This document shows positions 1,348 through 14,874 of a DNA stretch of 18,109 nt, piece after piece. The stretch's first letter is position 1, and each line of letters starts with the position of its first letter. Location: NCBI GenBank assembly GCA_934630735.1, contig CAKTWK010000042.1, forward strand, positions 1 to 18,109. Reading direction: 5' to 3'. The DNA is from an uncultured Collinsella sp. GTDB taxonomy: Bacteria > Actinomycetota > Coriobacteriia > Coriobacteriales > Coriobacteriaceae. The position numbers and the translations under genes were made by a program. A model generated the notes under the pieces. The model was not told the DNA's origin. It made no database searches and was given only the letters and a program-made list of their open reading frames with translations.

Positions 1348-1363
1348 TGTTCGTTACTGTTTG
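1348..1363 (+). promoter_or_regulatory. Phased TGTTC boxes, probable DeoR autoregulatory operator
   Basis: TGTTCG and TGTTTG lie four bases apart, a 10-bp (one helical turn) period. The same arrangement occurs upstream of lacF and lacA. The stretch TTGTTC-N5-TGTTTGAATG from 1347 recurs at 12788-12808 before lacF. Its position directly downstream of the -10 box suggests autorepression. Confidence 0.55.
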
Positions 1364-1398
1364 AATGATATGCGCGCAAAGAACGGCGAGGATTCATC

Positions 1399-2163
1399 GT
1401 GATTAAGGCAGAGCGACAGGATAAGGTTCGGCAGCTGCTCGAGGAACAGGGAACGGTTTCGGTCAAGGAGATCTCAGATGCGTTAGGTGTCTCGGATATG
1501 ACGATTCGCCGCGATCTTGAGGAGCTTGCGAGCCTGGGTGAGATTGAGCGCGTGCACGGCGGAGCCCGCAGTGCACAGGGCCGTCCACACGCTATGTTGC
1601 GCCATGAGTATTCGCACAGCGAAAAGCGCACTAAGCATGCCGAGGAAAAGCTGCAGATCGCGCGCCGTGCTGTGGAGCTTATCGAGGAGGGCTCGACCAT
1701 CTTTTTGGGTACGGGCACTACGGTTGAGCAGATGGCCTCGATGCTGCCGGCGTTTCGCCTGCGTATCGTGACCAATTCGCTTTCGGTGTTTAATCTGCTC
1801 GAGGCGCGCGAGGACTGCGACCTGTGCCTCGTGGGCGGTATGTACCGTCGCCGCACCGCCGCTTTTGTGGGACCAACGGCCGAGGATACCCTGCGTGCGC
1901 TGGGCATCGATGCGGCGTTTATCGGCGCCAACGGCATTCTGGATGGCGATGTGTCTACGTCCAACATGGATGAGGGCCGTATCCAGCAGCTCGCTTTTAG
2001 CAAGGCAGACTCGCGCTATCTGATCGCCGACTCCAGCAAGATCGGCAAGCGCGACTTCTATACCTTTTGCCGCCTGGACAGCTTGGATGCCGTTGTGTGC
2101 GAGCCGGGTATTACCGCCGAGGACCGCACTGCCATCGAGGAGCACACGCAGGTCATCTGCTAG
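1399..2163 (+). CDS. DeoR-family sugar regulator, LacR-like
   Basis: A 254-residue DeoR-type transcription regulator. Residues 1-57 form the family helix-turn-helix, including VSVKEISDALGVSDMTIRRD and an RVHGGA end. The rest is the sugar-phosphate sensor fold, with GTGTTVEQMA (phosphate-loop region) and the LGIDAAFIGANGI segment typical of DeoR C-terminal domains. The start is GTG with GGCGAGGA just upstream. In lactococci and streptococci the DeoR protein LacR represses lacABCDFEG and is released by tagatose-6-phosphate. The setting here fits that role, but LacR identity is inferred from context rather than a diagnostic motif. It probably controls itself, lacF and lacABXC through the TGTTC boxes. 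Confidence 0.88.
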   Translation: MIKAERQDKVRQLLEEQGTVSVKEISDALGVSDMTIRRDLEELASLGEIERVHGGARSAQGRPHAMLRHEYSHSEKRTKHAEEKLQIARRAVELIEEGSTIFLGTGTTVEQMASMLPAFRLRIVTNSLSVFNLLEAREDCDLCLVGGMYRRRTAAFVGPTAEDTLRALGIDAAFIGANGILDGDVSTSNMDEGRIQQLAFSKADSRYLIADSSKIGKRDFYTFCRLDSLDAVVCEPGITAEDRTAIEEHTQVIC

Positions 2164-2164
2164 C

Positions 2165-2181
2165 TATCGCTGCAGGCGATA
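2165..2181 (+). terminator. Weak stem-loop after the DeoR gene
   Basis: TATCGC and GCGATA form a perfect 6-bp stem with a 5-nt loop just after the regulator stop. What follows is pyrimidine-rich but not a T run, so termination is uncertain. Confidence 0.3.
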
Positions 2182-2260
2182 CTTCTGCCCTCTGCCGCGC
2201 GGGGATTATCGCTTCAATATGACGTGCAAATGTGCTTGGATTAAGCATTCAGCTTACAAA

Positions 2261-2566
2261 CTAGACCAGGCGGGCGTAGTCCTGTGACTGATGAAAGATG
2301 TGGGCGATATAGATTGTTTCGTGCTCAAACTTGTATAGACACACGTAGTTGTTGACGGGAAACGATCGGTAATTACGTGCCGCCAGCTCTTGCATGTGCG
2401 AGAGGGGACGTAAAAGCGGCTGCTCGCGAAGCAGGTCAAGCTGATATTCAAACTCAGCGACAAAATTGCCTGCTGCACGCGGATTCTTGAGGATTTGAGC
2501 AAGGTATCCGACAATACTCTCGTACTCATATCGCGCGCTTTTGAGGATTACGACGTTATAGGTCAT
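2261..2566 (-). CDS. ParE/RelE-superfamily toxin
   Basis: A 101-residue protein starting MTYNVVILKSARYEYESIVGYLAQ, the N-terminal strand and helix pattern of the ParE/RelE fold (plasmid-stabilisation toxins). It ends with the short C-terminal strands YVCLYKFEHETIYIAHIFHQSQDY seen in the family. The frame extends upstream to 2629, but ATG 2566 fits the family N-terminus and overlaps the antitoxin stop by 11 bp, a normal coupled arrangement. Whether it acts on gyrase (ParE-like) or on mRNA (RelE-like) cannot be told by eye. The surrounding DNA has lower GC than the lac genes, which may indicate acquisition. Confidence 0.85.
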   Translation of the reverse strand: MTYNVVILKSARYEYESIVGYLAQILKNPRAAGNFVAEFEYQLDLLREQPLLRPLSHMQELAARNYRSFPVNNYVCLYKFEHETIYIAHIFHQSQDYARLV

Positions 2567-2822
2567 ATTTGTCTCGTATCGAAGCCGCGAAAGAGTCGTA
2601 GTCGCTGTAGTCGCCTTGCGATATCTCATCTTCTGCCAACATCATGCGAGACAGCAGCTTGGCTTTGGCGATTTCGTCTTGCATGAGGCGATACTGGTCA
2701 TTGCTGATGCAGTGCATGGCCTCGTAGCCGTTCTTGGTTACGGTGACGTCGCGCTCAGACTCAACGAGCGCGGTAAATGCAGCGGTGTCCTTCATGTCAC
2801 GGACAGGCACACAGGCGGGCAT
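2556..2822 (-). CDS. Phd/YefM-family antitoxin
   Basis: An 88-residue antitoxin placed before its toxin. The N-terminal two-thirds has the Phd/YefM pattern: VPVRDMKDTAAFTALVESE, then a VTVTKNGYEAMHCIS strand-turn-strand, then a helix around QYRLMQDEIAKAKL. The acidic tail (AEDEISQGDYSDYD) is typical of the segment that wraps the toxin. The frame is open to 2858, but ATG 2822 is preceded by a near-perfect AAAGGAGG at the right spacing. The antitoxin and complex normally repress their own promoter, and a palindrome sits there at 2853-2862. Confidence 0.85.
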   Translation of the reverse strand: MPACVPVRDMKDTAAFTALVESERDVTVTKNGYEAMHCISNDQYRLMQDEIAKAKLLSRMMLAEDEISQGDYSDYDSFAASIRDKYDL

Positions 2823-2848
2823 AGGTACCTCCTTTGCGTTGGGACACA

Positions 2849-2862
2849 ATTGTACCACGGTA
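2849..2862 (-). promoter_or_regulatory. Toxin-antitoxin promoter -10 and palindromic operator
   Basis: On the minus strand TACAAT (2849-2854) is a good -10 box. It abuts the palindrome TACC-GT-GGTA (2853-2862), a likely antitoxin binding site. The -35 region is not clear. Confidence 0.5.
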
Positions 2863-2888
2863 TATTAAAACGTCGGCGTCGACGAATT

Positions 2889-3025
2889 ATCTCAATCTGT
2901 AACAGTTGGGAGTAGAAAACCGGGTTAGATGTTACAGATCGAGATCTTCAAGTTCGGGCCGCTCGTTTGTCTTGATCTGTAACAGGTAGGACCGAAAATC
3001 CCTGCTAGATGTTACAGATCGAGAC
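2889..3025. repeat. Array 1: two copies of a 57-bp palindromic repeat
   Basis: Copies lie at 2889-2945 and 2969-3025, starting 80 bp apart. Each is flanked by complementary arms close to TCTCGATCTGTAACA and its reverse complement (about 15 bp, few mismatches) around a 25-nt centre with a GAAAA core. In the second copy the arms extend to about 21 bp (2964-2984 with 3010-3030). Three more copies form array 2 at 7700-7915. There is no coding potential. The array fills the gap between the toxin-antitoxin promoter and the lacG1 terminator. Confidence 0.85.
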
Positions 3026-3048
3026 AAACGGTCTGCTCGGGCCGAGCC

Positions 3049-3096
3049 AAAACAAAAAGGCCGCATGCGATCCCGTGGAGGGACTCACATGCGGCC
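3049..3096 (-). terminator. Rho-independent terminator of lacG1
   Basis: A perfect 9-bp stem GGCCGCATG/CATGCGGCC (3059-3067, 3088-3096) is followed on the minus strand by a U-rich run from 3049-3058. It lies 22 bp past the lacG1 stop. Confidence 0.85.
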
Positions 3097-3118
3097 GACA
3101 GGGGGTACGCGGCAAAAG

Positions 3119-4540
3119 TTAGGCCATGAGCAGGCCGGTCTCCGCGACGTTCTTGTACCAGTACGCGCTCGCCTTGGGATAGCGCTTCTGGGTCTCGAAG
3201 TCGATGTAGAACAGGCCGTAGCGCTTGTTGTAGCCGTTGGTCCAGGAGAACTGGTCCTGCAGCGACCACACAAAGTAGCCGTCGACGTTCACGCCGCCGT
3301 CGATCGCCTTGAGGATCCATGCGAGATGCTGGCGCATATAGTCGATGCGAGGGGCGTCGTCGATAAAGCCGTCCTCAAAGTCGTCCTTATAGCCCATGCC
3401 GTTCTCGGTGATGTAGATCTTCTTGTAGTTGGGGTAATCGTTCTTAATGCGCAGCAGCAGGTCGTAGAGACCCTCGGGATAGATAATCCAGTCCCAATCG
3501 GTGGTGGGTACGCCTTCGCGCACGCATGACTCGCCCACGCCCTTGAGGAACCAGCGCGAGGAGCCCTTGTCGCCGGTGCCATTGTGGTTGATGTCGTTTT
3601 CGCCCTCGGCGGCACGTAGGAACTGGCACTTGTAGGTGTTGACGCCCAGGCAATCGTTGTAGGGGAGCGCAGCGGTCAGCGCGGCGATGTCCTCGTCGCG
3701 GACGTCGAGCTCGCCGCCGGCGATGTGGGCCAGCTTGGTCGCAGCCTCCATGGTGTCAGCTGCATAGTGGCCGCGGAAGGTAGCGTCGAGTACCCAGCGG
3801 TTGTTGATGACGTCGGCCATGCGAGCTGCCTCGCAGTCGGCGGCGTTGTTGGGGTCGAGGGGATACTTGGGCTCCAGGTTCTGGACAATGCCGATCTCGC
3901 CCTCAAAGCCGCCCTCATGGAAGGCGACGACAGCCTTGGCGTGGGCCACCATCATGTTGTGCATGAGCTGGAAGGCCTTGTCCAGGCGATACTTCTCGCC
4001 GTGCGGCCAGTTGCCGACGATAAAGCTGCCCTCGGCGGTCGCGGGGATCTCGTTAAACGTGAACCAGTGCTTGACCTCGGTGAACTCGGCAAAGCAGAAC
4101 TTGGCGTACTCGACAAAGGCGTCGATCGTCGTGCGCGTCAGGAATCCCTCGCCGCCGTTCTGGTAAAAGGCCTCGGGCGTATCGAAGTGATCGAGCGTGA
4201 CATAGGGGATAACGCCGGCTTTATTGCAGGTGGCAAAGAGCTCGTGATAGAAAGCGACGCCCTCGGGGTTAATCTCGCCAGTGCCGTTGGGGAAGATGCG
4301 GCTCCAAGCGATGGAGACGCGGATACCGTTGATGCCGAAGCGCTGGCACAGGTCGATATCGACCGGGTATTTGTTGTAGAAATCGCTTGCGGGGTCGGGG
4401 GAGAAGCGACCCTGGGCTGCCAGGAAATCGTCCCAGGGCACTTTGCCCTTGCCGTGCGTACGGGTCTCGCCCTCAACCTGGTAAGCAGCAGTGGCGCCGC
4501 CAAACACAAAGCCGTCGGGGAACTGCATGGGGTTGGTCAT
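3119..4540 (-). CDS. lacG: 6-phospho-beta-galactosidase, GH1 (copy 1)
   Basis: A 473-residue cytoplasmic glycoside hydrolase family 1 enzyme that cleaves 6-phosphorylated beta-galactosides, such as lactose-6-phosphate, into galactose-6-phosphate and an aglycone. It aligns end to end with lactococcal LacG as I recall that sequence. The acid/base is Glu164 (TFNEI) and the nucleophile Glu379 (ITENG). The phosphate-site residues Ser432, Lys439 and Tyr441 lie in SWTNGYNKRY, and Trp433 is the residue that marks galactosidase rather than glucosidase specificity. The segment after the acid/base (PATAEGSFIVGNWPHGEKY) differs strongly from copy 2, so the aglycone preference probably differs. AAAGGA precedes the ATG. 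It lies downstream of lacE1 in one operon, separated by a 76-bp gap with a stem-loop. Confidence 0.93.
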   Translation of the reverse strand: MTNPMQFPDGFVFGGATAAYQVEGETRTHGKGKVPWDDFLAAQGRFSPDPASDFYNKYPVDIDLCQRFGINGIRVSIAWSRIFPNGTGEINPEGVAFYHELFATCNKAGVIPYVTLDHFDTPEAFYQNGGEGFLTRTTIDAFVEYAKFCFAEFTEVKHWFTFNEIPATAEGSFIVGNWPHGEKYRLDKAFQLMHNMMVAHAKAVVAFHEGGFEGEIGIVQNLEPKYPLDPNNAADCEAARMADVINNRWVLDATFRGHYAADTMEAATKLAHIAGGELDVRDEDIAALTAALPYNDCLGVNTYKCQFLRAAEGENDINHNGTGDKGSSRWFLKGVGESCVREGVPTTDWDWIIYPEGLYDLLLRIKNDYPNYKKIYITENGMGYKDDFEDGFIDDAPRIDYMRQHLAWILKAIDGGVNVDGYFVWSLQDQFSWTNGYNKRYGLFYIDFETQKRYPKASAYWYKNVAETGLLMA

Positions 4541-4574
4541 GAGTCATCCTTTCTGTGGGATTCGAATAGGGAGA

Positions 4575-4601
4575 GGTGCCCGAACAGGGGATCCGGGCAC
4601 C
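4575..4601 (-). other. Intercistronic stem-loop between lacE1 and lacG1
   Basis: GGTGCCCG/CGGGCACC is a perfect 8-bp stem with an 11-nt loop in the gap between the two genes. No U run follows on the minus strand, so it is more likely an mRNA processing or stability element, or a weak attenuator, than a full terminator. The equivalent gap in unit 2 also holds a stem-loop. Confidence 0.6.
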
Positions 4602-4616
4602 AACAGAGGGAGGAAA

Positions 4617-6395
4617 CTAGTCGAGGTTCTCGCGGAGCCACTTAATGGCGCCAGCGGGGTCGCGAGTAAGGTCGATATATTCCTTACCGCGCGGGGCGAG
4701 CAGCTTAATGCCCAGGCGATCGGTGTCGGCCTTCATGTCGTTGTAGTAGCTACGGACTTGCGGGGCGAGCACGATAACGTCGTACTGATCCATGATGGCA
4801 GTGTGCTGGCCATAGGCGCCTGCGGAGGAAGCGATGTTCTCTCCGGTCTGCGCAGCACCTTCCTTGATGGCGTTGGCGAGCATGGCAGAGGTGCCGGCGC
4901 CGGCGCACAGGACGAGGACCTTCAGACCGTCGACACCCTTCTTAGCGGATGCGTCGGCGGCGGGCTCGGGCTGATCGGCGACAGGCTTGCTGTCGGCGGC
5001 AGCGGCGGTCGGCTCGACGGAAGCGGTAGTCTGCTCGACAGCGGGCGCAGAGGTGCTGGCGGCGATGGTGGCAGCACCATCGGACTCAAGACCCAGCTCG
5101 GCGGCGCGCTCGGCCTCCTGGTCGCAGAGCAGCTTATCGTATGCCTTCAAGAACGGCAGGTAGATGATGGCGTCCAGCAAGATGATGATCGCGACAAACA
5201 CCAGGGCGATAAGCTGGAAGTTTGTGGTGATGAAGATGCCGATGGGGGCGGGGGTGGCCCAAGGCACCACGAAGGAGAAGCCGTTCATGCCCACATTATC
5301 GATAAAGAACTTGGCAACGCTTACGTTGACGCAGCCGGCGGCAACAAAGGGGATGAGCACGTAGGGGTTAAGAATCATCGGCGCGCCAAAGAGCAGCGGT
5401 TCGTTGACGGCGAAGGCAACAGGAACAATCGAGGCCTTACCGACGGCTTTGAGCTGCTTGGACTTCATAAAGAGAATCAGCAGAAGCGGCACGATGAACG
5501 TGGCGCCGGTGCCGCCGAACTCACCCACGAGCGACATGTTAAAGGTGAGGGAATGGGCGGGGTGACCACCGGCCAGCAGAACCTGCAGGTTCTCGGCCTG
5601 GTTGGCAAGACGGATGGGGTCGATGCCCGGCTGGACAATCGAGGGGCCGTGGACGCCGATGAACCAGAAGAACGCGGTGGCTGCCTGGATAAGGATAAGG
5701 CCAGGATAGGTTTCTGCTGCGGTAAAGAGTGGGGAGAGCAGTTTGATAAGCAGCTCGGAGAACGGAACGCCTATGAGGTTGCGCACGACGACATCGATGA
5801 TGCCGCAGATGATGACGGCGCCGCCAAAGGGGATGATGTCGCGGAAGTTCTGAGCGATGGCGCCCGGGACCTCCTTGGGCAGCTTAATGGTCAGATCGCG
5901 CGAGACGCAGAATTTATAGACCCACACGGTAATGAACGCGGCGATATAGGCCGAGAACAGACCGCGCGTACCCATGCTGGTGCAATCGAAGACCGAAAGC
6001 TCGGAGCCGTTGAGCTTGGTGGTGAACTGCGTGACTGCGAGCAACAGCATGCTGCACTGGGCGGCCACCATGGTGGAACCGTCGTTGAGCACTTTGCCGG
6101 CGGGCATGCGACGGTTCATAGAAGCCGTCAAGTTCTTGGCAGTGGTGCCGGCGACCATGATGCCCATGACGCCCATGGTGAAGTTGTACAGCTTGTTGCA
6201 CCAGTCGATGAGCGGTTGGGGCAGCGTGATGCCAACCACGCCGGGAAGCGTGGCGATCAGCAGGAAAATCGAAGAGGTGAGGACGATTGGCATGCACCCA
6301 AGGAATCCGTCTTTGATGGCCTGGAGGTAGATGTTCCTCGAGATCTTCTCAAAGAACGGTTGATGCTTTTCGAGCATCTTTACGATGGCGTCCAT
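4617..6395 (-). CDS. lacE: PTS lactose-type EIICB permease (copy 1)
   Basis: A 592-residue inner-membrane PTS transporter that imports and 6-phosphorylates a disaccharide. Residues 1 to about 425 are the multi-spanning EIIC domain of the lactose/cellobiose family, with GVHGPSIV (His249) and NEPLLFG (Glu332), the positions known to bind sugar in ChbC-type EIIC structures. An Ala/Pro-rich linker (about 437-489) leads to a C-terminal EIIB domain whose phosphoryl-carrying Cys497 lies in LCAGAGTSAMLANAI. It is slightly longer than lactococcal LacE because of the linker. AAAGGAG precedes the ATG. No EIIA is encoded in this operon, so it must use LacF at 12891 or another EIIA. Probably repressed by the divergent LacI protein at 6672. 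Confidence 0.93.
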   Translation of the reverse strand: MDAIVKMLEKHQPFFEKISRNIYLQAIKDGFLGCMPIVLTSSIFLLIATLPGVVGITLPQPLIDWCNKLYNFTMGVMGIMVAGTTAKNLTASMNRRMPAGKVLNDGSTMVAAQCSMLLLAVTQFTTKLNGSELSVFDCTSMGTRGLFSAYIAAFITVWVYKFCVSRDLTIKLPKEVPGAIAQNFRDIIPFGGAVIICGIIDVVVRNLIGVPFSELLIKLLSPLFTAAETYPGLILIQAATAFFWFIGVHGPSIVQPGIDPIRLANQAENLQVLLAGGHPAHSLTFNMSLVGEFGGTGATFIVPLLLILFMKSKQLKAVGKASIVPVAFAVNEPLLFGAPMILNPYVLIPFVAAGCVNVSVAKFFIDNVGMNGFSFVVPWATPAPIGIFITTNFQLIALVFVAIIILLDAIIYLPFLKAYDKLLCDQEAERAAELGLESDGAATIAASTSAPAVEQTTASVEPTAAAADSKPVADQPEPAADASAKKGVDGLKVLVLCAGAGTSAMLANAIKEGAAQTGENIASSAGAYGQHTAIMDQYDVIVLAPQVRSYYNDMKADTDRLGIKLLAPRGKEYIDLTRDPAGAIKWLRENLD

Positions 6396-6499: not shown

Positions 6500-6543
6500 A
6501 ATGACAACGTAAGACATTTCGTTAATGACAACGTAAGACATTT
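6500..6543. promoter_or_regulatory. Tandem operator for the LacI-1/lacE1 divergent promoter region
   Basis: The 20-mer AATGACAACGTAAGACATTT occurs twice (6500-6519 and 6524-6543), a 24-bp period. Each copy is a partial palindrome with AATG/CATT ends and a central CG, as expected of LacI-family sites, and resembles the sites before LacI-2. Both copies contain TTGTCA on the minus strand, a possible -35 box for lacE1, so binding would block that promoter. The exact -10 is unclear. Confidence 0.65.
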
Positions 6544-6671: not shown

Positions 6672-7682
6672 GTGGCAACGATGGACAAGAAAAATGTCTC
6701 AATGAACGATGTGGCAGTTGCCGCGGGCGTTTCTCTCAAGACGGTGTCGCGCGTGATCAACGAGCCCGATAGCGTGCGCGAGTCGACGCGTGATAGGGTC
6801 CATGCTGCCATGGAGGCGCTCGGGTTTCGAACCAACTTTGCCGCGCGTTCACTCAAGTTGGGCCGTTACGGGTGCATTGGCGTCGTGCTGTTTCACTTGT
6901 CAGGCGGTGCCGTGGATATGATTGACGGCATCGCCGATGCCGCCGAAGAACGTGGCTTTGCGCTTACGATGATCAAAAAGCGGGCGGGGGAGAAGATGAC
7001 CCTTGCCGAAGCAGCGCGTAGGATGTCGCAGCTTCCCGTCGACGGCATGATTTTCAACCTGCGCCAGATGGTCGATGACTTTGAAACCTTTGAGGCGCCG
7101 AAAGACCTCAAGACGGTGATTATCACACCAATGGAACATCCTACCTGCTCCACCGTCAGTGACGATCAAGAGGGCGGCGCGCATATGGCGTGCGAGTACT
7201 TTTTGGACCACGGTCACAAGAACGTGTACTTCGTTTCTGGTAAAAAAGAGTCGCTGTCGAGCCAGTGCCGTATGAAAGGTTGGCGTGCGGCACTCGAGAC
7301 GCGTGGCATTGAGCCGCCCGAGCCTCTGCAAGGCGATTGGAATGCGGATAGTGGCTATGCCGCGGGCCTTGTGCTTGCCGATAAACCCGATTGCACGGCG
7401 GTCCTCGCTGCTAACGACAGCATGGCAAACGGCGTGATGATGGCTCTACGTGACAAAGGGCTCAGTGTGCCCGACGACGTGTCCGTGATCGGCTTCGACG
7501 ATGAGCTCTACAAGACGATCCCCAACTCGATTCTGACGTCAGTGAAGTTTCGCCATCGCGAGCTGGGCATCCGTGCGCTTAACGAGGTCGTCGCAGGTCT
7601 GGGAGCCCCGAGCTCCAGAAGCCGTACGCTCGTCTCGGGCGTGCTGGTCGAGCGTTCCAGCGTAAAGGACCTGCGAGCGTAG
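6672..7682 (+). CDS. LacI-family regulator 1
   Basis: A 336-residue LacI-type repressor. The helix-turn-helix is at 11-30 (MNDVAVAAGVSLKTVSRVIN), with the hinge around GFRTNFAARSLKLG, then a periplasmic-binding-like effector domain with GDWNADSGYAAG, ANDSMANG and DVSVIGFDDE. I chose GTG 6672 because GGAGAAG (6663-6669) is correctly spaced from it. The ATG at 6681 is in frame but too far from that site, and an earlier in-frame ATG at 6603 would add residues outside the family. It is divergent from lacE1-lacG1 and clearly paralogous to LacI-2 in the effector domain. Its inducer is unknown, though a phosphorylated or free galactoside is plausible. Confidence 0.88.
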   Translation: MATMDKKNVSMNDVAVAAGVSLKTVSRVINEPDSVRESTRDRVHAAMEALGFRTNFAARSLKLGRYGCIGVVLFHLSGGAVDMIDGIADAAEERGFALTMIKKRAGEKMTLAEAARRMSQLPVDGMIFNLRQMVDDFETFEAPKDLKTVIITPMEHPTCSTVSDDQEGGAHMACEYFLDHGHKNVYFVSGKKESLSSQCRMKGWRAALETRGIEPPEPLQGDWNADSGYAAGLVLADKPDCTAVLAANDSMANGVMMALRDKGLSVPDDVSVIGFDDELYKTIPNSILTSVKFRHRELGIRALNEVVAGLGAPSSRSRTLVSGVLVERSSVKDLRA

Positions 7683-7699
7683 ACGTGCTCGGCTCGTTC

Positions 7700-7915
7700 A
7701 TCTCAATCTGTAACAGTTAGGGCCGAAATATTCGGCTAGATGTTACAGATCGAGATTTTTGGCCCGGCCTATTCTGTTTGTCTTGATCTGTAACAGGTAG
7801 ACGGTCAAAAGCGGGCTACGTGTTACAGATTTAGATTTTCGGCTTGGCCTGTGCGTTCATCTCGATTTGTAACAGCTAGGAACGAAAAACTCGGTCAGAT
7901 GTTACAGATCGAGAC
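7700..7915. repeat. Array 2: three copies of the 57-bp palindromic repeat
   Basis: Copies lie at 7700-7756, 7780-7836 and 7859-7915, with starts 80 and 79 bp apart. They share the CTGTAACA/TGTTACAG arms and length of array 1; the arms of the middle and last copies carry a few mismatches. The gaps of about 23 bp also resemble each other, with a GGCCT or GGGCC core and GTTTGTC or GTTCATC just before the next copy. The array lies in the 352-bp gap between the convergent LacI-1 and lacG2 genes and is otherwise non-coding. Confidence 0.85.
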
Positions 7916-8034: not shown

Positions 8035-9474
8035 CTAGTCCAGACGACGGGTCTGCGCCACGTGCTTGTACCAGTAGGCGCTTGCCTTGGGCGTGCGCTT
8101 CTGGGTTTCAAAGTCAACGTAGAAGAAGCCGTAACGCTTGTTATAGCCATTTGTCCAGGAGAACTGGTCCTGCAGGCTCCACAGGAAGTAGCCGCCCACG
8201 TTGACGCCCACCTCCATAGCCTTGAGCAGCCAACGCAGGTGCTGCTCGATGTAGTCGATGCGCGGCTGGTCGTCCACAAAACCGTCCTTGTAGGGGTCCT
8301 TGTAGCCCATGCCGTTCTCGGTGATGAAGATCTGCTTGTAGTTGGGGTAGCGCTGCTTAATGTAGACGAGCAGATCGAACAGACCCTCGGGATAGATGAT
8401 CCAGTCCCAGTCGGTGGTGGGGATGCCGGGCTTGTTCACATGCTCGCCAATGCCCTTGACGCGCCAGCGACCGGTGCCCTTCTCGCCCGTACCGTTGTGG
8501 TGCAGGTCGTTCTCGCCATCGTAAGCCTTCAAAAAACGGCACTGGTAGTTGTTAACGCCCAGGTAGTCGTTGTAGAGCGCTGCTTCGCGCATAATCTTGA
8601 GGTCCTCGTCCAGGATCTCGATGGTGCCGCCCGAGATGGCGGCCAGGCGGTTGGCGCACTCGAGGGTGTCGGGGGCATAGTCGCCGCGGAAGGTGGCGTC
8701 GAGCAAAAACTGGTTCTGCAGCACGTGCTCGTTGTTGGCGGCCTTGATGTCGGCGGGGTCGTTCTCGTTAAGCGGGTACTTGAACTCCAGCGACTGGATG
8801 ACGCCGATCTTGCCCTTGAAGCCGCCGTTATGGAAGGCCAGTACTGCCTTGGCGTGGGCGAGCATCATGTTGTGCTCGCACTGGAAAGCCTCGGCCAGAT
8901 GCGCCTTGACGCCGCCGGGGAAGGTGCCCTCGATGTAGGTGTTGGAGGCGTCGGCCCAGATCTCGTTAAAGGTGAACCAGTAGGTCACCTGGTCGGCGTA
9001 CTCCTTAAAGCAAAAGGTGGCAAAGTCCACAAAGGCGTCGATGGTCTCGCGGTTGAGGAAGTCGCCCTTCTCAAAGAGGGGAAGCGGCGTGTCAAAGTGA
9101 TGCAGCGTGACAAACGGCTCAACGTGGTGCTTGTGGCACTCGGCAAAGAGGTCGTGGTAGAACTGCACACCCTCGGCGTTGATCTCGCCGGTGCCGTTGG
9201 GGAAGATGCGGCTCCAGGCAATGGAGAGGCGGATGCCGTTGATGCCGAACTCCTCGCACAGCTCCAGATCGACGGGGTACTGGTTGTAGAAGTCGGAAGC
9301 GGGATCGGGGGAGAAACGGCCCTGGGCCTCCAGGAAGTCGTCCCAGGCAACCTTGCCCTTACCGTGAGTGCGGGTCTCGCCCTCTACCTGGTAGGCAGCA
9401 GTGGCGCCGCCAAAGACAAAGTCCTCTGGAAACTGCGCAGGCGGGTTGGTGACGCTAGCAGGATTAACGGACAT
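8035..9474 (-). CDS. lacG: 6-phospho-beta-galactosidase, GH1 (copy 2)
   Basis: A 479-residue paralogue of the enzyme at 3119. The acid/base is Glu171 (TFNEI), the nucleophile Glu386 (ITENG), and the phosphate-site residues Ser439, Lys446 and Tyr448 sit with galactosidase-marking Trp440 in SWTNGYNKRY. It keeps the LHHFD loop of lactococcal LacG, where copy 1 has LDHFD. The aglycone-side loop after the acid/base (NEIWADASNTYIEGTFPGG) differs from both copy 1 and LacG. The N-terminus has about seven extra residues, and the ATG has only a weak GGAT site, so the exact start is less sure and translation may depend on the upstream lacE2 transcript. A 66-bp gap with a stem-loop separates it from lacE2. 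Confidence 0.92.
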   Translation of the reverse strand: MSVNPASVTNPPAQFPEDFVFGGATAAYQVEGETRTHGKGKVAWDDFLEAQGRFSPDPASDFYNQYPVDLELCEEFGINGIRLSIAWSRIFPNGTGEINAEGVQFYHDLFAECHKHHVEPFVTLHHFDTPLPLFEKGDFLNRETIDAFVDFATFCFKEYADQVTYWFTFNEIWADASNTYIEGTFPGGVKAHLAEAFQCEHNMMLAHAKAVLAFHNGGFKGKIGVIQSLEFKYPLNENDPADIKAANNEHVLQNQFLLDATFRGDYAPDTLECANRLAAISGGTIEILDEDLKIMREAALYNDYLGVNNYQCRFLKAYDGENDLHHNGTGEKGTGRWRVKGIGEHVNKPGIPTTDWDWIIYPEGLFDLLVYIKQRYPNYKQIFITENGMGYKDPYKDGFVDDQPRIDYIEQHLRWLLKAMEVGVNVGGYFLWSLQDQFSWTNGYNKRYGFFYVDFETQKRTPKASAYWYKHVAQTRRLD

Positions 9475-9540: not shown

Positions 9541-11316
9541 TTACTTCGACAGTTGCTCGCTCACGAAGGTGAGAGACTTGTCGCCGTTCTGGGAGAGCTC
9601 GATGTACTGCTTACCGCGGCAGGCGACGCACTTGTTGCCCACACGCTCGCAGTCTTTCTGCAGGTCGGCCAGGTAGCTGGCGGCCTGCGGGGCCAGGACG
9701 ACCAGGTCAAAGTCGGGGAGCATGTCGACGTGGTTGCCATATGCCTCGGCAGCGGTTTCGAGGTTAATGCCGCGATCCTTGGCGGCCTTGGCCAGCGCGT
9801 TGGCGAGCAGGCCCGAGGTGCCGCCGCCCTGGCAGAGCACGAGCACGCGCTTGCCGTTGAGGTCGCTGGCGGTCGTAGCCTCGGCAGCGGGTGCTGTGGA
9901 AGCGGCGGGGGCGTCGGCCTTCACGGCCTCGGCTGCGGCGCCGGCGGCAACGCTCTTGGCATCGGCCTTGCCCTGGAAGGCGTCGTTGAGCTTGGCGGCC
10001 TTCTCGGCGTTCTTGGCGGCGAGCTCCTCTTGGGAGATCTCGGCCTCCTCGGCGCACTTCTGGGCGTCATAGGCACGGAAGAACGGATAGTACAGGACAA
10101 AGTCGACGACCAAGATGAGGGCGAGCATCACAAAGGCGAGCGGCTGGAAGCCCAAGCCCATGATGGTGCTGATGGGGCCGGGAACGGTCCAAGGCAGGGT
10201 GTACATAAAGCCGTTCATGCCCAAGAAGTCGATAAAGATTTTGAGGATCCAGATGTTGGCGATCGGAGCAAAGACAAACGGGACAAAGAAGACGGGGTTG
10301 AGCACGATGGGTGCGGCGAACAGCAGCGGCTCGTTGACGGCAAAGCACACGGGGACGATGGCTGCCTTACCGACGGCACGCATCTCCTGGGATTTGGCCA
10401 GGAAGCAGAACATAAAGACCAGGACGAGCGTGGCGCCGGTGCCGCCCATGCAGACGACGAAGTACTGGGCACCCTGGGTCAGGACAGCGGAAGCGTGCTG
10501 ACCAGCCTGGAACGCAGCTAGGTTGTCGGTCATGTTGGCAACGAGGGCGGCGGCGATGGCGGGCTCGACGATCGAGGGGCCGTGGACGCCGACGAACCAG
10601 AACAGGCTCATAGCGCCGTAGATCACAGCGAGGCCGATGTAGCCGTCGGCAGCGGTGAACAGGGGCTGGAACACTTGGATGACGCCCTGGGCAAAGCAGA
10701 AGCCAAAGGCAGCGCGGAAGACGATGTCAAAGACCCAAAAGACGGTGATGCAGACGGAGAAGGGGATGATGTCCTTAAAGGTCTGCGAGATGTTGGGCGG
10801 AACCTGCTCGGGCATCTTGACGGTGATGTTGCGCTTAATGAAGAACTTGTAGATGATGCCGGTCACAAACGCAGCGATGAAGGCGGTCAGCAGGCCCTTG
10901 GAACCAAGGTAGGTGGTGTTGAAGCCGCTGGCGGCATCCGTGGCGATGGTGTCGCTCGAAAGGAGCAGGAAGCCGATGATGGCCGCGCACATGCACGAGA
11001 TGAAGTTGATCTGGTTGTTCTTGGGCAGATCGCGGTTCTGGGCGTCGGCGAAGTGCTTGGCAGTGGTGGCGGCGCAGGCGATGGCCAGGATACCCATGGA
11101 GTAGTTGTAGCACTTCCACAGGGCGTTGTTGATGTCATCGGGCCAGTAGAAACCCCAGATGTTGGGGACCGAGGCTACCAGACAGAAGATGGACGAGAAG
11201 ATGATGATGGGGATGACGGAGATAAAGCCGTCGCGGATCGCCTTGAGGTACTTGTTGCGGGCGATCGCGTTGAAAAAGGGCTGGCCCTTTTCGATGATGG
11301 CGATGAGTTGCTCCAT
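9541..11316 (-). CDS. lacE: PTS lactose-type EIICB permease (copy 2)
   Basis: A 591-residue membrane permease with the same architecture as copy 1: EIIC to about residue 415 with GVHGPSIV (His245) and NEPLLFA (Glu329), an Ala-rich charged linker to about 488, and EIIB with Cys495 in LCQGGGTSGLLANAL. This last motif is closer to the classical lactose EIIB (CAGGGTSGLLANAL) than that of copy 1, so this may be the main lactose carrier and copy 1 a variant. AGGAG precedes the ATG. It is followed by lacG2 and divergent from LacI-2. The substrate is inferred from the partner hydrolase and the family, not proven. Confidence 0.93.
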   Translation of the reverse strand: MEQLIAIIEKGQPFFNAIARNKYLKAIRDGFISVIPIIIFSSIFCLVASVPNIWGFYWPDDINNALWKCYNYSMGILAIACAATTAKHFADAQNRDLPKNNQINFISCMCAAIIGFLLLSSDTIATDAASGFNTTYLGSKGLLTAFIAAFVTGIIYKFFIKRNITVKMPEQVPPNISQTFKDIIPFSVCITVFWVFDIVFRAAFGFCFAQGVIQVFQPLFTAADGYIGLAVIYGAMSLFWFVGVHGPSIVEPAIAAALVANMTDNLAAFQAGQHASAVLTQGAQYFVVCMGGTGATLVLVFMFCFLAKSQEMRAVGKAAIVPVCFAVNEPLLFAAPIVLNPVFFVPFVFAPIANIWILKIFIDFLGMNGFMYTLPWTVPGPISTIMGLGFQPLAFVMLALILVVDFVLYYPFFRAYDAQKCAEEAEISQEELAAKNAEKAAKLNDAFQGKADAKSVAAGAAAEAVKADAPAASTAPAAEATTASDLNGKRVLVLCQGGGTSGLLANALAKAAKDRGINLETAAEAYGNHVDMLPDFDLVVLAPQAASYLADLQKDCERVGNKCVACRGKQYIELSQNGDKSLTFVSEQLSK

Positions 11317-11374
11317 ACAATGCTCCTAAGAGTCGGTGGGTTAGCAACGATGGTAGCTCTTGGCGTTCGGTTGC

Positions 11375-11398
11375 CAAAATGTTGACGTTGCCATTTTG
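11375..11398. promoter_or_regulatory. LacI-2 operator O1, proximal to lacE2
   Basis: CAAAATG-N10-CATTTTG has perfect 7-bp arms around a central CG (11386-11387). The core AATGTT-GACGTTGCCATT matches 17 of 18 bases of the reverse complement of O2. It lies about 60 bp before the lacE2 start. Confidence 0.7.
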
Positions 11399-11497
11399 CG
11401 ACACAAAAAAAGACGCGAACCGGTGGTTCCTGTGCCTGCGAACCATCGATTCCTTACGCGTGAACGTTTGAGCCGCCCGGTGGCCCTGTGTTTGCGC

Positions 11498-11515
11498 AAT
11501 GGCAACGTTAACATT
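11498..11515. promoter_or_regulatory. LacI-2 operator O2
   Basis: AATGGCAACGTTAACATT is a quasi-palindrome around CG at 11506-11507, exactly 120 bp from the centre of O1 and in the opposite orientation. A central CpG with A/T flanks is the general pattern of LacI-family operators. Confidence 0.65.
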
Positions 11516-11600
11516 TGGACGACAAAAGCCGTCCGGGGAAGCGGGATTGTCGGTGAACGGTAGGTTTTGGGTGGTAAGCGTATTGCGGGGAGGCGTTGGA

Positions 11601-11606
11601 TATACT
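11601..11606 (+). promoter_or_regulatory. Possible -10 box of LacI-2 gene
   Basis: TATACT is a good -10 match about 65 bp before the coding start. No strong -35 is visible at 16-18 bp. A start near 11613 would put O3 inside the leader. Confidence 0.4.
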
Positions 11607-11640
11607 TGGAGGCGTTCATTTTGTCTGTTGGGATGTCCGC

Positions 11641-11658
11641 GATGGCATCGTTGACATA
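11641..11658. promoter_or_regulatory. LacI-2 operator O3, probable autoregulatory site
   Basis: GATGGCATCGTTGACATA matches O2 at 14 of 18 positions, with its CG centred at 11649-11650, 143 bp from O2. It ends 13 bp before the LacI-2 start codon, where bound repressor could block transcription. Confidence 0.5.
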
Positions 11659-11671
11659 GAAAGATCGACCT

Positions 11672-12676
11672 ATGGCCGCTGTTAAAAAATCGGTTTCCGT
11701 TAAGGACGTGGCGCGTCTCGCGGGCGTCTCGGAGCAGACGGTCTCGCGCACCGTGCACGATTCGCCCAGCGTGCGTCCCGAGACCAAGGAGCGCGTGCGT
11801 GCCGCCATGCGCGAGCTGGGGTATCGTCCAAACTTTGCCGGCCGTTCGCTGCGTCGCGGCAAGTTTAAGACCGTCGGCGTCGCCATGTTCAACATTACCG
11901 GCACCGGCAACCTCGACCGTATGGAGGGCTTTACCGCTGCGGCCGACAAACACGGCTATGCCATCACTCTCACTAAAGTAGACGGGCATCCGTATACCCT
12001 CGAGAGTGCATCGTCGCGCATGAGCGCGCTGCCGGTGGATGGCATGGTTGTGATCATGAATCGCATGCCGGCGGACTTTGGCTCCTTCGAGCCACTGCCC
12101 GGTATGCAGACGGTGCTCGTTACTATGCTGGAGCACCCGCTGTGCTCGACGGTTGATAACGATCAGTTCGATTGCTCGCGCCAGGTGGTCGAGTACTTGT
12201 TGGAGCAGGGGCACAAGACCGTGCACTTTATCTCATGCCCCGAGCGCTCGCTTTCGGGCATGCAGCGCGAGGAGGGCTGGCGCGAGACATTGCGTGCGCA
12301 TGGTATTGAGCCGCCGCGACTCGTCCGTGGCGATTGGACGGCACAGAGCGGATATGCCGCCGGTCAGGCTCTGGCGGACGATCCGACCTGTACGGCCATT
12401 TATGCTTCCAACGACGCCATGGCCTACGGCTGCATTCGCGGGCTCGAATCGCGCGGAAAGCGCGTGCCCGAGGACGTGAGCGTGGCGGGTGTTGATGACA
12501 GCCTGGGCGACATCGTGCCCGACCGTCGCCTGACCACGGTGCGCTTTGACAACAAGCGCGTCGGCATGTGGGCTGTCGACAAGATTGCCGGCGCCGAGGG
12601 GGTTGCGTCTGGCGTGGAGCACATGCTGATCCCCGGCATGCTCGTAGAGGGTGATACGGTGCGCGATGTACGCTAG
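11672..12676 (+). CDS. LacI-family regulator 2
   Basis: A 334-residue LacI-type repressor. The helix-turn-helix is at 10-29 (VKDVARLAGVSEQTVSRTVH), with the hinge YRPNFAGRSLRRG, then the sugar-sensing domain. It shares GIEPP, GDWTAQSGYAAG, ANDxMAxG-like (SNDAMAYG) and DVSVAGVDD with LacI-1, showing that the two are paralogues, but the recognition helices differ (SLKTVSRV versus SEQTVSRT). The ATG has only a weak AAAGA-type site, and no better start is visible. It is divergent from lacE2-lacG2 with three related operators between, so control of that operon and of itself is the simplest reading. The inducer is unknown. Confidence 0.9.
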   Translation: MAAVKKSVSVKDVARLAGVSEQTVSRTVHDSPSVRPETKERVRAAMRELGYRPNFAGRSLRRGKFKTVGVAMFNITGTGNLDRMEGFTAAADKHGYAITLTKVDGHPYTLESASSRMSALPVDGMVVIMNRMPADFGSFEPLPGMQTVLVTMLEHPLCSTVDNDQFDCSRQVVEYLLEQGHKTVHFISCPERSLSGMQREEGWRETLRAHGIEPPRLVRGDWTAQSGYAAGQALADDPTCTAIYASNDAMAYGCIRGLESRGKRVPEDVSVAGVDDSLGDIVPDRRLTTVRFDNKRVGMWAVDKIAGAEGVASGVEHMLIPGMLVEGDTVRDVR

Positions 12677-12707
12677 GGTGTGGACCTGTTTGGGTTGCCA
12701 CTAATTG

Positions 12708-12723
12708 TGTTCGATATTGTTCG
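12708..12723 (+). promoter_or_regulatory. Phased TGTTCG boxes upstream of lacF (distal)
   Basis: TGTTCG-ATAT-TGTTCG is a perfect direct repeat with 10-bp period, like those at the DeoR gene and lacA. Probably a DeoR/LacR site. Confidence 0.5.
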
Positions 12724-12788
12724 CATTGGTTTAAAAACCGTTCACGGGCGAAAATCGACCGTTCATAGCTCGAAATTGCGTTTTGCAT

Positions 12789-12804
12789 TGTTCTGTTTTG
12801 TTTG
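12789..12804 (+). promoter_or_regulatory. Phased TGTTC boxes upstream of lacF (proximal)
   Basis: TGTTCT-GTTT-TGTTTG has a 10-bp period. With its flanks it matches the operator at the DeoR promoter as TTGTTC-N5-TGTTTGAATG. The lacF -10/-35 could not be placed confidently. Confidence 0.5.
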
Positions 12805-12890
12805 AATGTTAATGTTTCTGTCATACACAACGCAGCGCGTATGCCCGGACGCGATGCTCTCCATTGGTTCATATGTGAAAGGAACGCAAT

Positions 12891-13229
12891 ATGGCAACCA
12901 AAGAAGAAATCTCGATGGTTGGATTCGAGATCGTCGCATACGCGGGTGACGCCCAGACTGATCTGCTTGCAGCGCTCGATGCTGCTCGCGAGGGTGATTT
13001 TGAGAAGGCCGAACAGCTGCACAAGGATGCGAGCGATGCACTCATTGGCGCCCACGACACGCAGACCAAGCTGCTTTCGCAGGAGGCCGGCGGCGGCGAG
13101 ATGGAGATGACCTTCATCATGGCCCACGCTCAGGACACCCTCATGACCACCATGATCTTGGAGAAGCAGACCCGCTTTACCATCGATGCCTACAAGCGCA
13201 TCGCTGAGCTCGAGGCCAAGCTCGCCTAA
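12891..13229 (+). CDS. lacF: PTS lactose-specific EIIA
   Basis: A 112-residue cytoplasmic phosphocarrier that takes phosphate from HPr and passes it to EIIB. All-helical Lac/Chb EIIA: His79 in FIMAHAQDTLMTTM is the phosphorylated residue, and Asp82 corresponds to the Mg-binding aspartate at the trimer axis. The N-terminal VGFEIVAYAGDAQTDLLAAL helix is also typical. AAAGGA precedes the ATG. It is a single-gene unit with its own terminator, so its level is set independently of either permease. It is the only EIIA in the window and therefore probably serves both EIICB proteins. Confidence 0.95.
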   Translation: MATKEEISMVGFEIVAYAGDAQTDLLAALDAAREGDFEKAEQLHKDASDALIGAHDTQTKLLSQEAGGGEMEMTFIMAHAQDTLMTTMILEKQTRFTIDAYKRIAELEAKLA

Positions 13230-13256
13230 CGAACCCTCACAACCTCGTCCCCTTCC

Positions 13257-13289
13257 AAAAACCCTGCCGCTATCCGCGGCAGGGTTTTT
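13257..13289. terminator. Terminator of lacF (symmetric)
   Basis: ACCCTGCCGC/GCGGCAGGGT is a perfect 10-bp stem with loop TATCC. It is flanked by A4 and T4, so it could work on both strands. Confidence 0.9.
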
Positions 13290-13394
13290 CTGTATCCCAC
13301 CTATCTAGGTTGCGGCGAAATAGGGGCCGACAGCCCCAAATGACCCGCTTTTCCCGTCCCCGGAGGATCGGTTGGCAGCGCTCGCCACGAAACT

Positions 13395-13532
13395 GGCTCA
13401 TCTACTACGTTTAACCCGATACCCTCGAACACACCCGCGTTTCATGAAAAATCGCAGGACTTCTACCTGCGGTTTTGTTTTTTCGCTTTGTGGCATGGTC
13501 GGGGATGGGCGGTTAAACGTAGTAGATGGGCC
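13395..13532. repeat. 138-bp element bounded by 22-bp inverted repeats
   Basis: Arms at 13395-13416 and 13511-13532 are inverted copies matching at 21 of 22 positions, with an 18-bp perfect core CATCTACTACGTTTAACC. Between them is a terminator-like hairpin (13446-13478). There is no plausible gene and no obvious target-site duplication. It could be a small mobile (MITE-like) element or a structured RNA. The rest of the 416-bp gap 13230-13645 also holds a small GGGGC/GCCCC hairpin at 13323-13337 and nothing else I can name. Confidence 0.65.
13446..13478 (+). terminator. Terminator-like hairpin inside the inverted-repeat element
   Basis: CGCAGG and CCTGCG pair around a 7-nt loop and are followed by GTTTTGTTTTTT. 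It has the form of a good plus-strand terminator but follows no recognised gene, so a short transcript from 13290 onward is possible. Confidence 0.6.
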
Positions 13533-13601
13533 CATTTCATGGCGGGCGGATCATGCAGCAGCTTGTTGCGCCTCCTGCCGTTCGGTTTTTCGATGGGTGG
13601 G

Positions 13602-13607
13602 TATACT
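13602..13607 (+). promoter_or_regulatory. Possible -10 box of the membrane-protein gene
   Basis: TATACT lies 39 bp before the start codon. The -35 region is poor. Confidence 0.4.
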
Positions 13608-13645
13608 TCCATCCGCAATACAGGCCGGAATGAGGAGGTATCCAA

Positions 13646-14659
13646 ATGCCGGACAACGGATCAATTCAAAAAAGAGACGCGTATGAGATGGCTCATGGGC
13701 GTCCTGTCCAGATAACCGAGCATACGACGGTAACCGAGCTGCAGCCCAGCCTGTCCGATGTCGTGTGCGCAAACAAAAAGCTCCAGATTGGCTTTATCGT
13801 TGCGCTCGTGGTGCTGGCGCTGCTGTCGGGCTTTGTAGCTCGTCCGCATTTTGCCGATACCAAGACTTGGGACTCCACCATCGAGGTCATCGATCAAAAG
13901 AAAGGTAACGTACTGGCGCTCACGACCTCGTGCGTGGCGCTATCTGCGGGCATTACCGCGCTGCCGGGTGATACGGGAACGCCGGTTGCCGAGCAGCTCG
14001 CGCAGCTTTCAGGCAACTTGGGCATCGTGCTTGCCGTGCTCTATCTCGAGAAATATCTGCTGACTATTTTGTGGTCGGTTGGCCTAGGCATCTTAATCCC
14101 GTTTGCGTTGGTGCTCTTTGCGGTGTCGCTTGGCATTCATGGGCGCTGGAGCACGAGCGCCGTCCTGCGCCGCGTGGCGACGCGCGTGCTGGTGGTTGCC
14201 GTGATCGGCATGGCGCTTGTACCCGCGAGTGTGTGGGTATCGCAAAAGGTCGACGAAACGTATCGAGTGAGCATCGAAGCGGCGGAGCAAAAGGCGGCCG
14301 ACGCTGCGGGTACGGCAGATAGCGACAGCTCCAAGGCAAGCAAGAAAAAGACCGAGTCCACAGAGTCCAAGAACGTGCTTGAACAGCTTGCCGACGGTGC
14401 CTCGAGCCTGTTCACGTCGGTAACCAGTGGTGCCAAGCAAATGACCGACGAGATCGTGCAACAGGTGACCGACCTAATTGAAGGCGTCATCGTGATGATC
14501 GTGACCTCGTGCGTTATCCCGCTGCTGGTGCTTGTGGCGTTTCTGTGGCTGGGCCACACCCTGCTGGGGATTGATATCTCCGGCCCGGCGAACTATTTGA
14601 CGGGCCGCTTTCTGAGTGCTCCGTCCAAGCACGCCAAAAAGGGTGGGCAGTCTGAGTAG
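13646..14659 (+). CDS. Uncharacterised multipass membrane protein
   Basis: A 337-residue protein I cannot assign to a named family. GAGGAGG gives a strong ribosome site before ATG 13646. There is a hydrophilic N-terminus (1-46), a membrane segment at about 47-65, and a 20-residue polar loop. A conserved-looking hydrophobic block at 88-106 is followed by LPGDTGTPVAEQLAQLSGN, then hydrophobic segments at about 124-142, 143-163 and 177-197. A Lys/Ser/Glu-rich linker (about 200-250) precedes a last segment at 279-308. The hydrophobic pair around a G-D-T-G-T-P motif looks like a functional core. It has its own promoter and terminator between lacF and lacA, and no link to sugar transport is evident. 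Confidence 0.85.
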   Translation: MPDNGSIQKRDAYEMAHGRPVQITEHTTVTELQPSLSDVVCANKKLQIGFIVALVVLALLSGFVARPHFADTKTWDSTIEVIDQKKGNVLALTTSCVALSAGITALPGDTGTPVAEQLAQLSGNLGIVLAVLYLEKYLLTILWSVGLGILIPFALVLFAVSLGIHGRWSTSAVLRRVATRVLVVAVIGMALVPASVWVSQKVDETYRVSIEAAEQKAADAAGTADSDSSKASKKKTESTESKNVLEQLADGASSLFTSVTSGAKQMTDEIVQQVTDLIEGVIVMIVTSCVIPLLVLVAFLWLGHTLLGIDISGPANYLTGRFLSAPSKHAKKGGQSE

Positions 14660-14695
14660 ATAAAAAGGCTGGATTTGCTGGGGCATACCGCCATA

Positions 14696-14733
14696 GGGCG
14701 GCCGAGATGCGTTCTCGGCCGCCCTTTCTATTT
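14696..14733 (+). terminator. Terminator of the membrane-protein gene
   Basis: GGGCGGCCGAG/CTCGGCCGCCC is a perfect 11-bp stem (14696-14706, 14714-14724) followed by TTTCTATTT. It lies 37 bp past the stop codon. Confidence 0.88.
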
Positions 14734-14798
14734 GTTGAATACGTGGCAGGCCGGGCCTTTCTCGAGCCCAAACGGTCGGCAATCATCCGTGAACGGTA

Positions 14799-14818
14799 TT
14801 TGTTCAAAAAAGAACAAA
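14799..14818. promoter_or_regulatory. Palindromic operator upstream of lacA (distal)
   Basis: TTTGTTC-N6-GAACAAA is a perfect 7-bp inverted repeat. Its TGTTC half-site is the same as in the phased boxes. It lies 56 bp centre to centre from the second palindrome. Confidence 0.6.
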
Positions 14819-14834
14819 GTTAAACAAATAATGG

Positions 14835-14863
14835 TTGCACCCGATGTTCGAATGTGTTCAAAT
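14835..14863 (+). promoter_or_regulatory. Possible lacA promoter
   Basis: TTGCAC (14835-14840), a 17-bp spacer, then TCAAAT (14858-14863, four of six matches to the -10 consensus). The -10 lies inside the palindrome at 14855-14874, which would explain repression. It would give a leader of about 100 nt. Confidence 0.4.
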
Positions 14864-14874
14864 AAACATGAACA
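14845..14874. promoter_or_regulatory. Phased TGTTC boxes and palindrome upstream of lacA (proximal)
   Basis: TGTTCG-AATG-TGTTCA (14845-14860) repeats the 10-bp-phased direct boxes found at the DeoR gene and lacF. Its second box also forms a perfect inverted repeat, TGTTCA-N8-TGAACA (14855-14874). Probably the main LacR operator of the lacAB operon. Confidence 0.6.

Follow-up and report, generated by a model that had tools for sequence, protein, structure and literature searches.

The window analyzed here is the whole stretch of 18,109 nucleotides at positions 1 to 18,109 of contig CAKTWK010000042.1, from an uncultured Collinsella sp. (assembly GCA_934630735.1), and it holds a lac-type locus with two kinds of putative regulator-binding sites. 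We read 16 genes, in the order galM, a DeoR-family regulator gene (deoR), a small gene pair, two lacG-lacE-lacI cassettes and lacF, followed by a gene whose product has no family matches, lacA, lacB, an epimerase-like gene and a lacC-like kinase gene (Table 1). The parts of a lactococcal-type system (lacAB, lacC, lacF, lacE and lacG) are present, the lacC and lacF models being the best matches of their genes, under their cut-offs. The deoR product has both domains of its family, PF08220 (HTH_DeoR) and PF00455 (the DeoRC sensor). Among its 15 NCBIfam matches there is no LacR model, nor any curated equivalog of a named DeoR-type sugar regulator that would apply: no NCBIfam model reached its own cut-off (the best, NF041397, gave 187 of 300 bits), and we therefore call the protein LacR-like by context only. 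The products of lacI1 and lacI2 both match PF00356 and PF13377 above cut-off, and LacI1 can be aligned with the Lac repressor chain 4rzs_A across the stretches GDW.A.SG, AND.MA and G.DD, which we take to contact the inducer.

Table 1. Genes and predicted regulatory sites of the window. "Pattern" is TGTTY-N5-TGTTY; "matrix" is the scoring matrix described in the text.
Feature	Position	Strand	Basis
DeoR-type box TGTTC-N5-TGTTT before deoR	1348..1362	+	pattern and matrix
deoR, DeoR-family regulator (LacR-like by context)	1399..2163	+	Pfam DeoRC and HTH_DeoR above cut-off
lacG1, 6-phospho-beta-galactosidase, cassette 1	3119..4540	-	TIGR01233 above cut-off
lacE1, EIICB, cassette 1	4617..6395	-	TIGR00410 above cut-off; TIGR00394 best match but under cut-off
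presumed LacI1 operator pair	6500..6542 (6500-6518, 6524-6542)	+	tandem 19-bp form AATGACAACGTAAGACATT
lacI1	6672..7682	+	Pfam LacI and Peripla_BP_3 above cut-off
lacG2, cassette 2	8035..9474	-	TIGR01233 above cut-off
lacE2, EIICB, cassette 2	9541..11316	-	TIGR00410 above cut-off
presumed LacI2 operator AATGTTGACGTTGCCATT	11378..11395	+	exact AATGN3ACGTN3CATT; 9/9 rows
presumed LacI2 operator AATGGCAACGTTAACATT	11498..11515	+	exact AATGN3ACGTN3CATT
lacI2	11672..12676	+	Pfam LacI and Peripla_BP_3 above cut-off
DeoR-type box 1 before lacF	12708..12722	+	pattern and matrix; overlapping in-phase third unit 12718-12732, 19.0 bits
DeoR-type box 2 before lacF	12789..12803	+	pattern and matrix
lacF, lactose-type EIIA common to the cassettes	12891..13229	+	TIGR00823 best, 118.5 bits, under 136.95 cut-off; Pfam PTS_IIA above cut-off
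337-aa protein between lacF and lacA	13646..14659		no Pfam or NCBIfam match
DeoR-type boxes before lacA	14802..14826	-	14802-14816 matrix only; 14812-14826 exact pattern; 10-bp phase
DeoR-type box before lacA	14845..14859	+	pattern and matrix
lacA	14969..15397	+	NF006380 above cut-off
lacB	15461..15985	+	NF006381 above cut-off
aldose-1-epimerase-like gene between lacB and lacC	16105..16986	+	weak NF011719 match, 34.5 bits vs cut-off 251
lacC-like tagatose-6-phosphate kinase	17040..17975	+	NF010033 best, 362 bits, under 469 cut-off; TIGR03168 hexose kinase above cut-off

Phased direct repeats of the form TGTTY-N5-TGTTY have five exact matches in the window against 0.07 expected, a number reached in 0 of 200 dinucleotide shuffles; one lies before deoR, two before lacF and two before lacA. 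The initial annotation had listed four TGTTC-like pairs, at 1348, 12708, 12789 and 14845, all of which are exact, with units exactly 10 bp apart, but its list was incomplete, as the fifth exact box, on the minus strand at 14812-14826, had been overlooked. We also used a matrix of 24 columns, trained on 21 sites from relatives, none taken from the window and some identical to the window's. Its ten best matches in the window (29.5 to 13.7 bits) all fall in the galM/deoR, lacI2/lacF and hyp/lacA intergenic regions, and extra units seen by the matrix only lie at 12718 (+), 14802 (-) and 14860 (-). In the two lacE-lacI intergenic regions of the window (IG1 and IG2, for cassettes 1 and 2; IG3 is that of a cassette 3 found in relatives), the best matrix scores are 8.2 and 3.2 bits; the initial annotation had found no TGTTC-like boxes there. 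By eye, the deoR box stands directly 3´ of an extended -10-like element, TGATACAAT, at 1338-1346, which is absent from the promoter-scan list; the sigma-70 scan of the window gave 5 promoter-like sites against 6.5 expected, and for that reason no promoter claim is built on it.

The lacE-lacI regions carry sites of another type. The AATG...CATT sites previously claimed for these regions are exact matches to the 18-bp pattern AATGN3ACGTN3CATT in IG2, where the two operators are 120 bp apart, a spacing identical in 4 of 4 genomes; in IG1 they take an altered 19-bp form, three mismatches from the pattern. Because all 10 other IG1 rows, from relatives, hold the perfect palindrome AATGACAACGTTGTCATT at the first site, we regard the window's first IG1 operator as altered; it now equals the neighboring copy, as after a local copy event. 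In the genomes of four relatives the pattern, which was drawn after the sites had been seen, has 3, 4, 4 and 4 distinct sites, and 15 of 15 lie in lacE/lacG-lacI regions (control, 0). Local regulators of the LacI family mostly bind even palindromes with a central CG, and most are autoregulated (Ravcheev et al. 2014, PMC4052901; here and below, published systems are described from the available portions of the papers cited). The sites in IG2 of the window and in IG1 of 10 of 10 relatives have this form and lie near their own lacI gene. Unlike those regulators, the Collinsella proteins are paralogues with related operators, in tandem cassettes that have one EIIA gene in common. The operators share AATG-ACGT-CATT and differ in their 3-bp linkers, which are ACA/TGT in IG1, GCA/TAA and TTG/TGC in IG2, and AGC/GAA in IG3. 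Pairwise identity among the LacI proteins of the three cassettes is about 46-49%, and their recognition helices start differently (LK, EQ and RQ before TVSR), with residues that may read the operator linkers. Such paralogous pairs of LacI and operator, differing in three linker bases, offer a ready orthogonality test.

The best explanation, to which we give a probability of roughly three in four, is that a DeoR/LacR-type repressor acts on the shared genes and that the cassette LacI repressors act on their own permease/hydrolase pairs. The locus would then be a shared chassis with plug-in cassettes, under two kinds of repressor. The DeoR/LacR-type repressor would bind the phased TGTTY direct repeats before its own gene, lacF and lacA-lacB-epimerase-lacC, would also control a distant DUF4867 gene, and would presumably leave the DNA when a phosphorylated galactoside breakdown product is present; the lacF product would be the EIIA needed by all permeases. 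In every cassette, lacG-lacE and its own lacI point away from each other, and the product of that lacI would bind the AATG-NNN-ACGT-NNN-CATT palindromes between lacE and lacI. Given that the linkers differ between cassettes, a given LacI would be expected to keep just its own permease/hydrolase pair repressed, and only as long as the sugar it responds to is absent. We infer the pairing of proteins with sites, the repression, the inducers and the orthogonality from the motifs, their positions, their conservation and their observed placement in four genomes. If true, the locus would be a natural, compact example of adding sugar-specific modules without rewiring shared metabolism, and it leads to a prediction of how Collinsella in the gut may tell lactose apart from other beta-galactosides.

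The closest of the genomes compared has 71% of sampled words in common with the window. Of 24 genomes of the nearest genus, 13 encode the DeoR with 96-98% identity, and these 13 also have lacA at 99-100%. The boxes are kept in the aligned upstream stretches (14 for deoR, 9 for lacF and 9 for lacA, window included), and the minus-strand box overlooked before lacA is an exact match in 9 of 9 rows. Matrix scores exceed 21.6 bits, the maximum of a null of 1000 model sequences of 300 bp, in 14 of 14 deoR, 9 of 9 lacF and 9 of 9 lacA upstream rows (32 of 32); the 99% null level of 17.8 bits is passed in 0 of 26 cassette regions (0 of 11 for IG1, 0 of 9 for IG2 and 0 of 6 for IG3). The relatives' scores are not independent, because the matrix was trained partly on their upstream regions, with some training sites equal to the window's own; moreover, the 13 close relatives behave as one clade. 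One of the six IG3 rows (locus L059 of genome G001; L- and G-numbers denote loci and genomes) is a contig end and not a true IG3, the real one being on another contig. Given the shared training and this row, more weight is due to tests with the exact pattern and with diverged loci.

Exact TGTTY-N5-TGTTY matches number 21, 14, 15 and 17 in the genomes of four relatives (67 in total). The lac locus accounts for 23 of these, including three at the cassette-3 site, and eight lie before DUF4867, two per genome; the 36 that remain elsewhere compare with 31 for a reversed control. A genome-wide motif scan had been set beforehand as a test on which the proposal could fail, and outside the lac locus and DUF4867 the pattern occurs at about background.

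The association of the box with deoR extends to diverged loci. In six of them a DeoR of about 50-55% identity is encoded beside galK/galT-like genes (named by eye), with a box before deoR that is exact in L043, L045, L046 and L048, one letter off in L047 and degenerate in L044; L045 and L046 are nearly identical sequences. This box is the top matrix match in all five stretches scanned, each of about 20 kb; three of them had contributed to training, and L046 was scanned by pattern only. Phased triple units also precede lacA in three genomes with lacA at 77-78% identity. In our view the best independent support for two repressor tiers is the layout repeated in G056, a genome outside the training set, where lacB-lacA-deoR (68% identity) is divergent from lacF (77%) and two lacI-lacE-lacG cassettes are present. 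Its three matrix matches above 13 bits in 19.9 kb all lie between deoR and lacF, and LacI sites are found at 10694 and 10714 in cassette one and, with one mismatch, at 16889 and 16912 in cassette two. The triple phased TGTTY units of L049, L050, L051, L167 and L168, where lacA and lacB are at 77-78% and 88-90% identity, have as neighbors genes of the phosphotransferase system (PTS), sulfatase-like genes and paired DeoR genes (named by eye).

The TGTTY boxes could instead belong to another regulator, a DeoR paralogue or a GntR protein, and not to the DeoR of the locus. Further DeoR paralogues, about 26-41% identical, are encoded in relatives; in three genomes a string resembling the box, TGTTCTATGTTGTTC, is found beside a GntR-like and a SIS-like gene (named by eye); and G021 has a boxed lacF (26.5 bits) with no close DeoR, its best match being at 28% identity. 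We nonetheless consider this improbable: a box precedes deoR in 14 of 14 rows of the lac-type clade, and it is again the top match in the five stretches from diverged loci with other neighbors, as expected for autoregulation.

Besides the lacF of G021, several further observations weigh against a clean split between the two repressor kinds. In eight genomes, cassette 3, which the window lacks, contains the exact TGTTY pattern as TGTTTGAAGTTGTTT; its matrix matches score 16.6 and 11.4 bits, the former occurring in 5 of 6 IG3 rows, and IG1 of one relative reaches 13.6 bits at the degenerate GGTCGATATTGTCC. These matches would fit an arrangement in which all promoters, including those of the cassettes, answer to DeoR as in Lactococcus lactis, and the LacI proteins only fine-tune. 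We give that arrangement an outside chance, as none of the 26 cassette rows is above the 99% null level, IG2 reaches at most 3.2 bits in 9 rows, and no cassette region of G056 has a matrix match above 13.

The shared gene lacF provides the remaining exceptions. In G023 it has an exact LacI-type palindrome, AATGAGCACGTGCTCATT, 35 bp upstream, together with a 13.8-bit DeoR-like box, and in G056 a two-mismatch palindrome, TTTGAGCACGTGCTCATT (by eye); LacI could therefore reach a shared gene in sister species. By extension, the cassette LacI proteins might also control lacF in the window's species, which would place EIIA under both tiers. We think this unlikely, because the lacF region of the window has no site within 3 mismatches and the best sites in 9 of 9 aligned lacF rows have 4 or more. 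In each of the 23 other lacF loci of this type there are two DeoR-type boxes scoring at least 17 bits, and LacI sites within one mismatch are lacking; the main scan read 25 of 26 lacF loci, and G049 was examined separately. The diverged lacF of G049 (67%) has no nearby matrix match above 13, and its 19.9-kb stretch has no LacI site within one mismatch, which also speaks against the split. A lacF match at an E value of 1e-30 is missing in 17 of 43 genomes. The simplest reading, a guess based on a handful of arrangements, is that lacF passed to the sole control of DeoR once it had to serve several cassettes; G056, with two cassettes plus a LacI-type site at lacF, argues against it. The two tiers proposed at the outset are favored by conservation, by placement in the genomes of four relatives (LacI sites only in cassettes, TGTTY at about control level outside the lac locus and DUF4867) and by G056, but the partition is not absolute, as cassette 3 and the lacF genes of G023 and G056 illustrate.

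In L. lactis, the lac genes are commonly described as all under LacR alone. The placement of motifs in the window and its relatives speaks against such control of all genes, and the initial annotation had drawn this contrast with classical lactococcal lac operons; control by LacR alone is not general, since Lacticaseibacillus casei and Streptococcus pneumoniae have split systems. The genes lacRABCDFEG are named in both L. lactis and Streptococcus mutans (PMC5940811), and GlaR is reported as a further activator of the lac genes in L. lactis (PMC6528599). Like these species, the locus in the window has a lacR-type regulator, lacAB, lacC, lacF, lacE, lacG and the tagatose-6-phosphate route. Unlike their one operon, it has separate units; in relatives the number of lacG/lacE cassettes, each with a LacI gene of its own, ranges from one to three, some relatives have a further lacE unit, and the 13 close relatives have no lacD match.

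The separation of tagatose from transport genes has precedents. In S. pneumoniae (gene order in PMC3302838), LacR is reported to repress lacABCD and LacT to activate lacTFEG (Afzal et al. 2014, cited in PMC5018945). There too, tagatose genes and transport/hydrolase genes are under two different regulators; unlike in Collinsella, the second regulator is an antiterminator, and lacF goes with the transport genes. L. casei likewise keeps its transport/hydrolase operon, lacTEGF, apart from a tagatose-6-phosphate operon that includes LacR1 (lacR1ABD2C), and has a second PTS/phospho-beta-galactosidase set, gnb, in a separate operon (PMC5940811). It differs from Collinsella in that lacF is within its own operon and LacT is the specific tier, and no tandem cassettes are described in the available portion of that paper. 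Corynebacterium glutamicum SugR and L. lactis FruR resemble the Collinsella protein in the DeoR-type control of PTS genes, FruR potentially binding four repeating non-palindromic sequences; unlike the Collinsella boxes, the SugR motif is an AC-rich non-palindromic 21-mer, and its targets differ (PMC2222622). The Collinsella locus would work like a split lac regulon, a split already known from S. pneumoniae and L. casei. Its distinguishing features would be that the specific tier consists of LacI proteins, that the cassettes stand in tandem and that EIIA belongs to the shared tier. No account of this arrangement in Collinsella surfaced in the literature search; most subscription papers lay beyond its reach, and absence is unproven.

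The number of cassettes varies. Within the stretches fetched, the region from deoR to lacF in relatives contains from one to three lacG-lacE-lacI cassettes, with a further lacE4 unit in 4 of 13. Pieces of deoR with 86-93% identity are found past the lacE4 unit or past other inserts (L057:6477-6761, L061:13542-13826, L065:13715-13999 and L067:14431-14580), which suggests that units enter just downstream of deoR. We find the case evenly balanced for a modular plug-in regulon, in which tandem cassettes, each with a LacI and its own linker-defined variant of a common palindrome, would be gained and lost beside a fixed DeoR chassis of EIIA and the tagatose-6-phosphate route. In such a regulon the boxes would also have recruited the distant DUF4867 gene, and the predicted substrate of this cupin family would be a phosphorylated tagatose or galactose intermediate.

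The DUF4867 gene (PF16161) lies far from the lac locus, outside the window (for example, L032:3346-3990). The 13 genomes of the 24 that carry it are precisely those in which the lac-type DeoR and lacA are found; as these genomes behave as one clade, the co-occurrence should not be counted as 13 separate events. Upstream of the gene, two boxes, one forward at -45 and one reverse at -14, are present in 12 of 13 loci of one set and in 18 of 20 of another, and the sets may have members in common. Since the reverse box coincides in part with the ribosome-binding region, its conservation may partly have another cause. A search with a relative's DUF4867 protein reaches close relatives only, and its 20 named loci are all Collinsella. 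In the available portion of PMC11968277, no activity was found for DUF4867, ketose mutarotation was suggested, and one network cluster was tagatose-related. We predict that the protein acts on tagatose or galactose phosphates, and the boxes provide a regulon-based lead on a family whose function that paper, as available, left open.

A lacD gene controlled by these boxes was considered too, but nothing in the 13 lac-type relatives matches the LacD model TIGR01232; its matches in 2 of 24 genomes, G002 (above cut-off) and G021 (just under), fall outside these 13. In G024 (L172), a GatY-like class II aldolase gene (best model NF006626, under cut-off) lies about 8.6 kb beyond lacC, accompanied by a divergent DeoR paralogue. 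We considered it as a regulon member and dropped it, because its stretch has only a 13.5-bit matrix match. A third shared motif, ACCGTTCA or CCGTTYACSG, was also set aside, as it is not clearly enriched genome-wide (46, 49 and 48 occurrences against 38, 47 and 43 in controls, for G024, G008 and G015). By eye, TGAACGGT/ACCGTTCA recurs in promoters of the locus, in the window at 11554-11561, 12737-12744, 12758-12765 and 14790-14797.

The window has other features. The 337-aa protein between lacF and lacA is 92-98% identical in eight relatives' stretches. Two small overlapping genes on the minus strand at 2261-2822 look toxin-antitoxin-like by eye, with no NCBIfam match. Control at the RNA level was considered and dropped, a scan of the window with Rfam at gathering scores having given 0 matches. 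Repeats of 58-61 nt lie between gene units at 2887-3024 and 7695-7914, with inverted CTGTAACA/TGTTACAG arms and a spacing of about 80 bp, and strings resembling them also occur near DUF4867 in some relatives.

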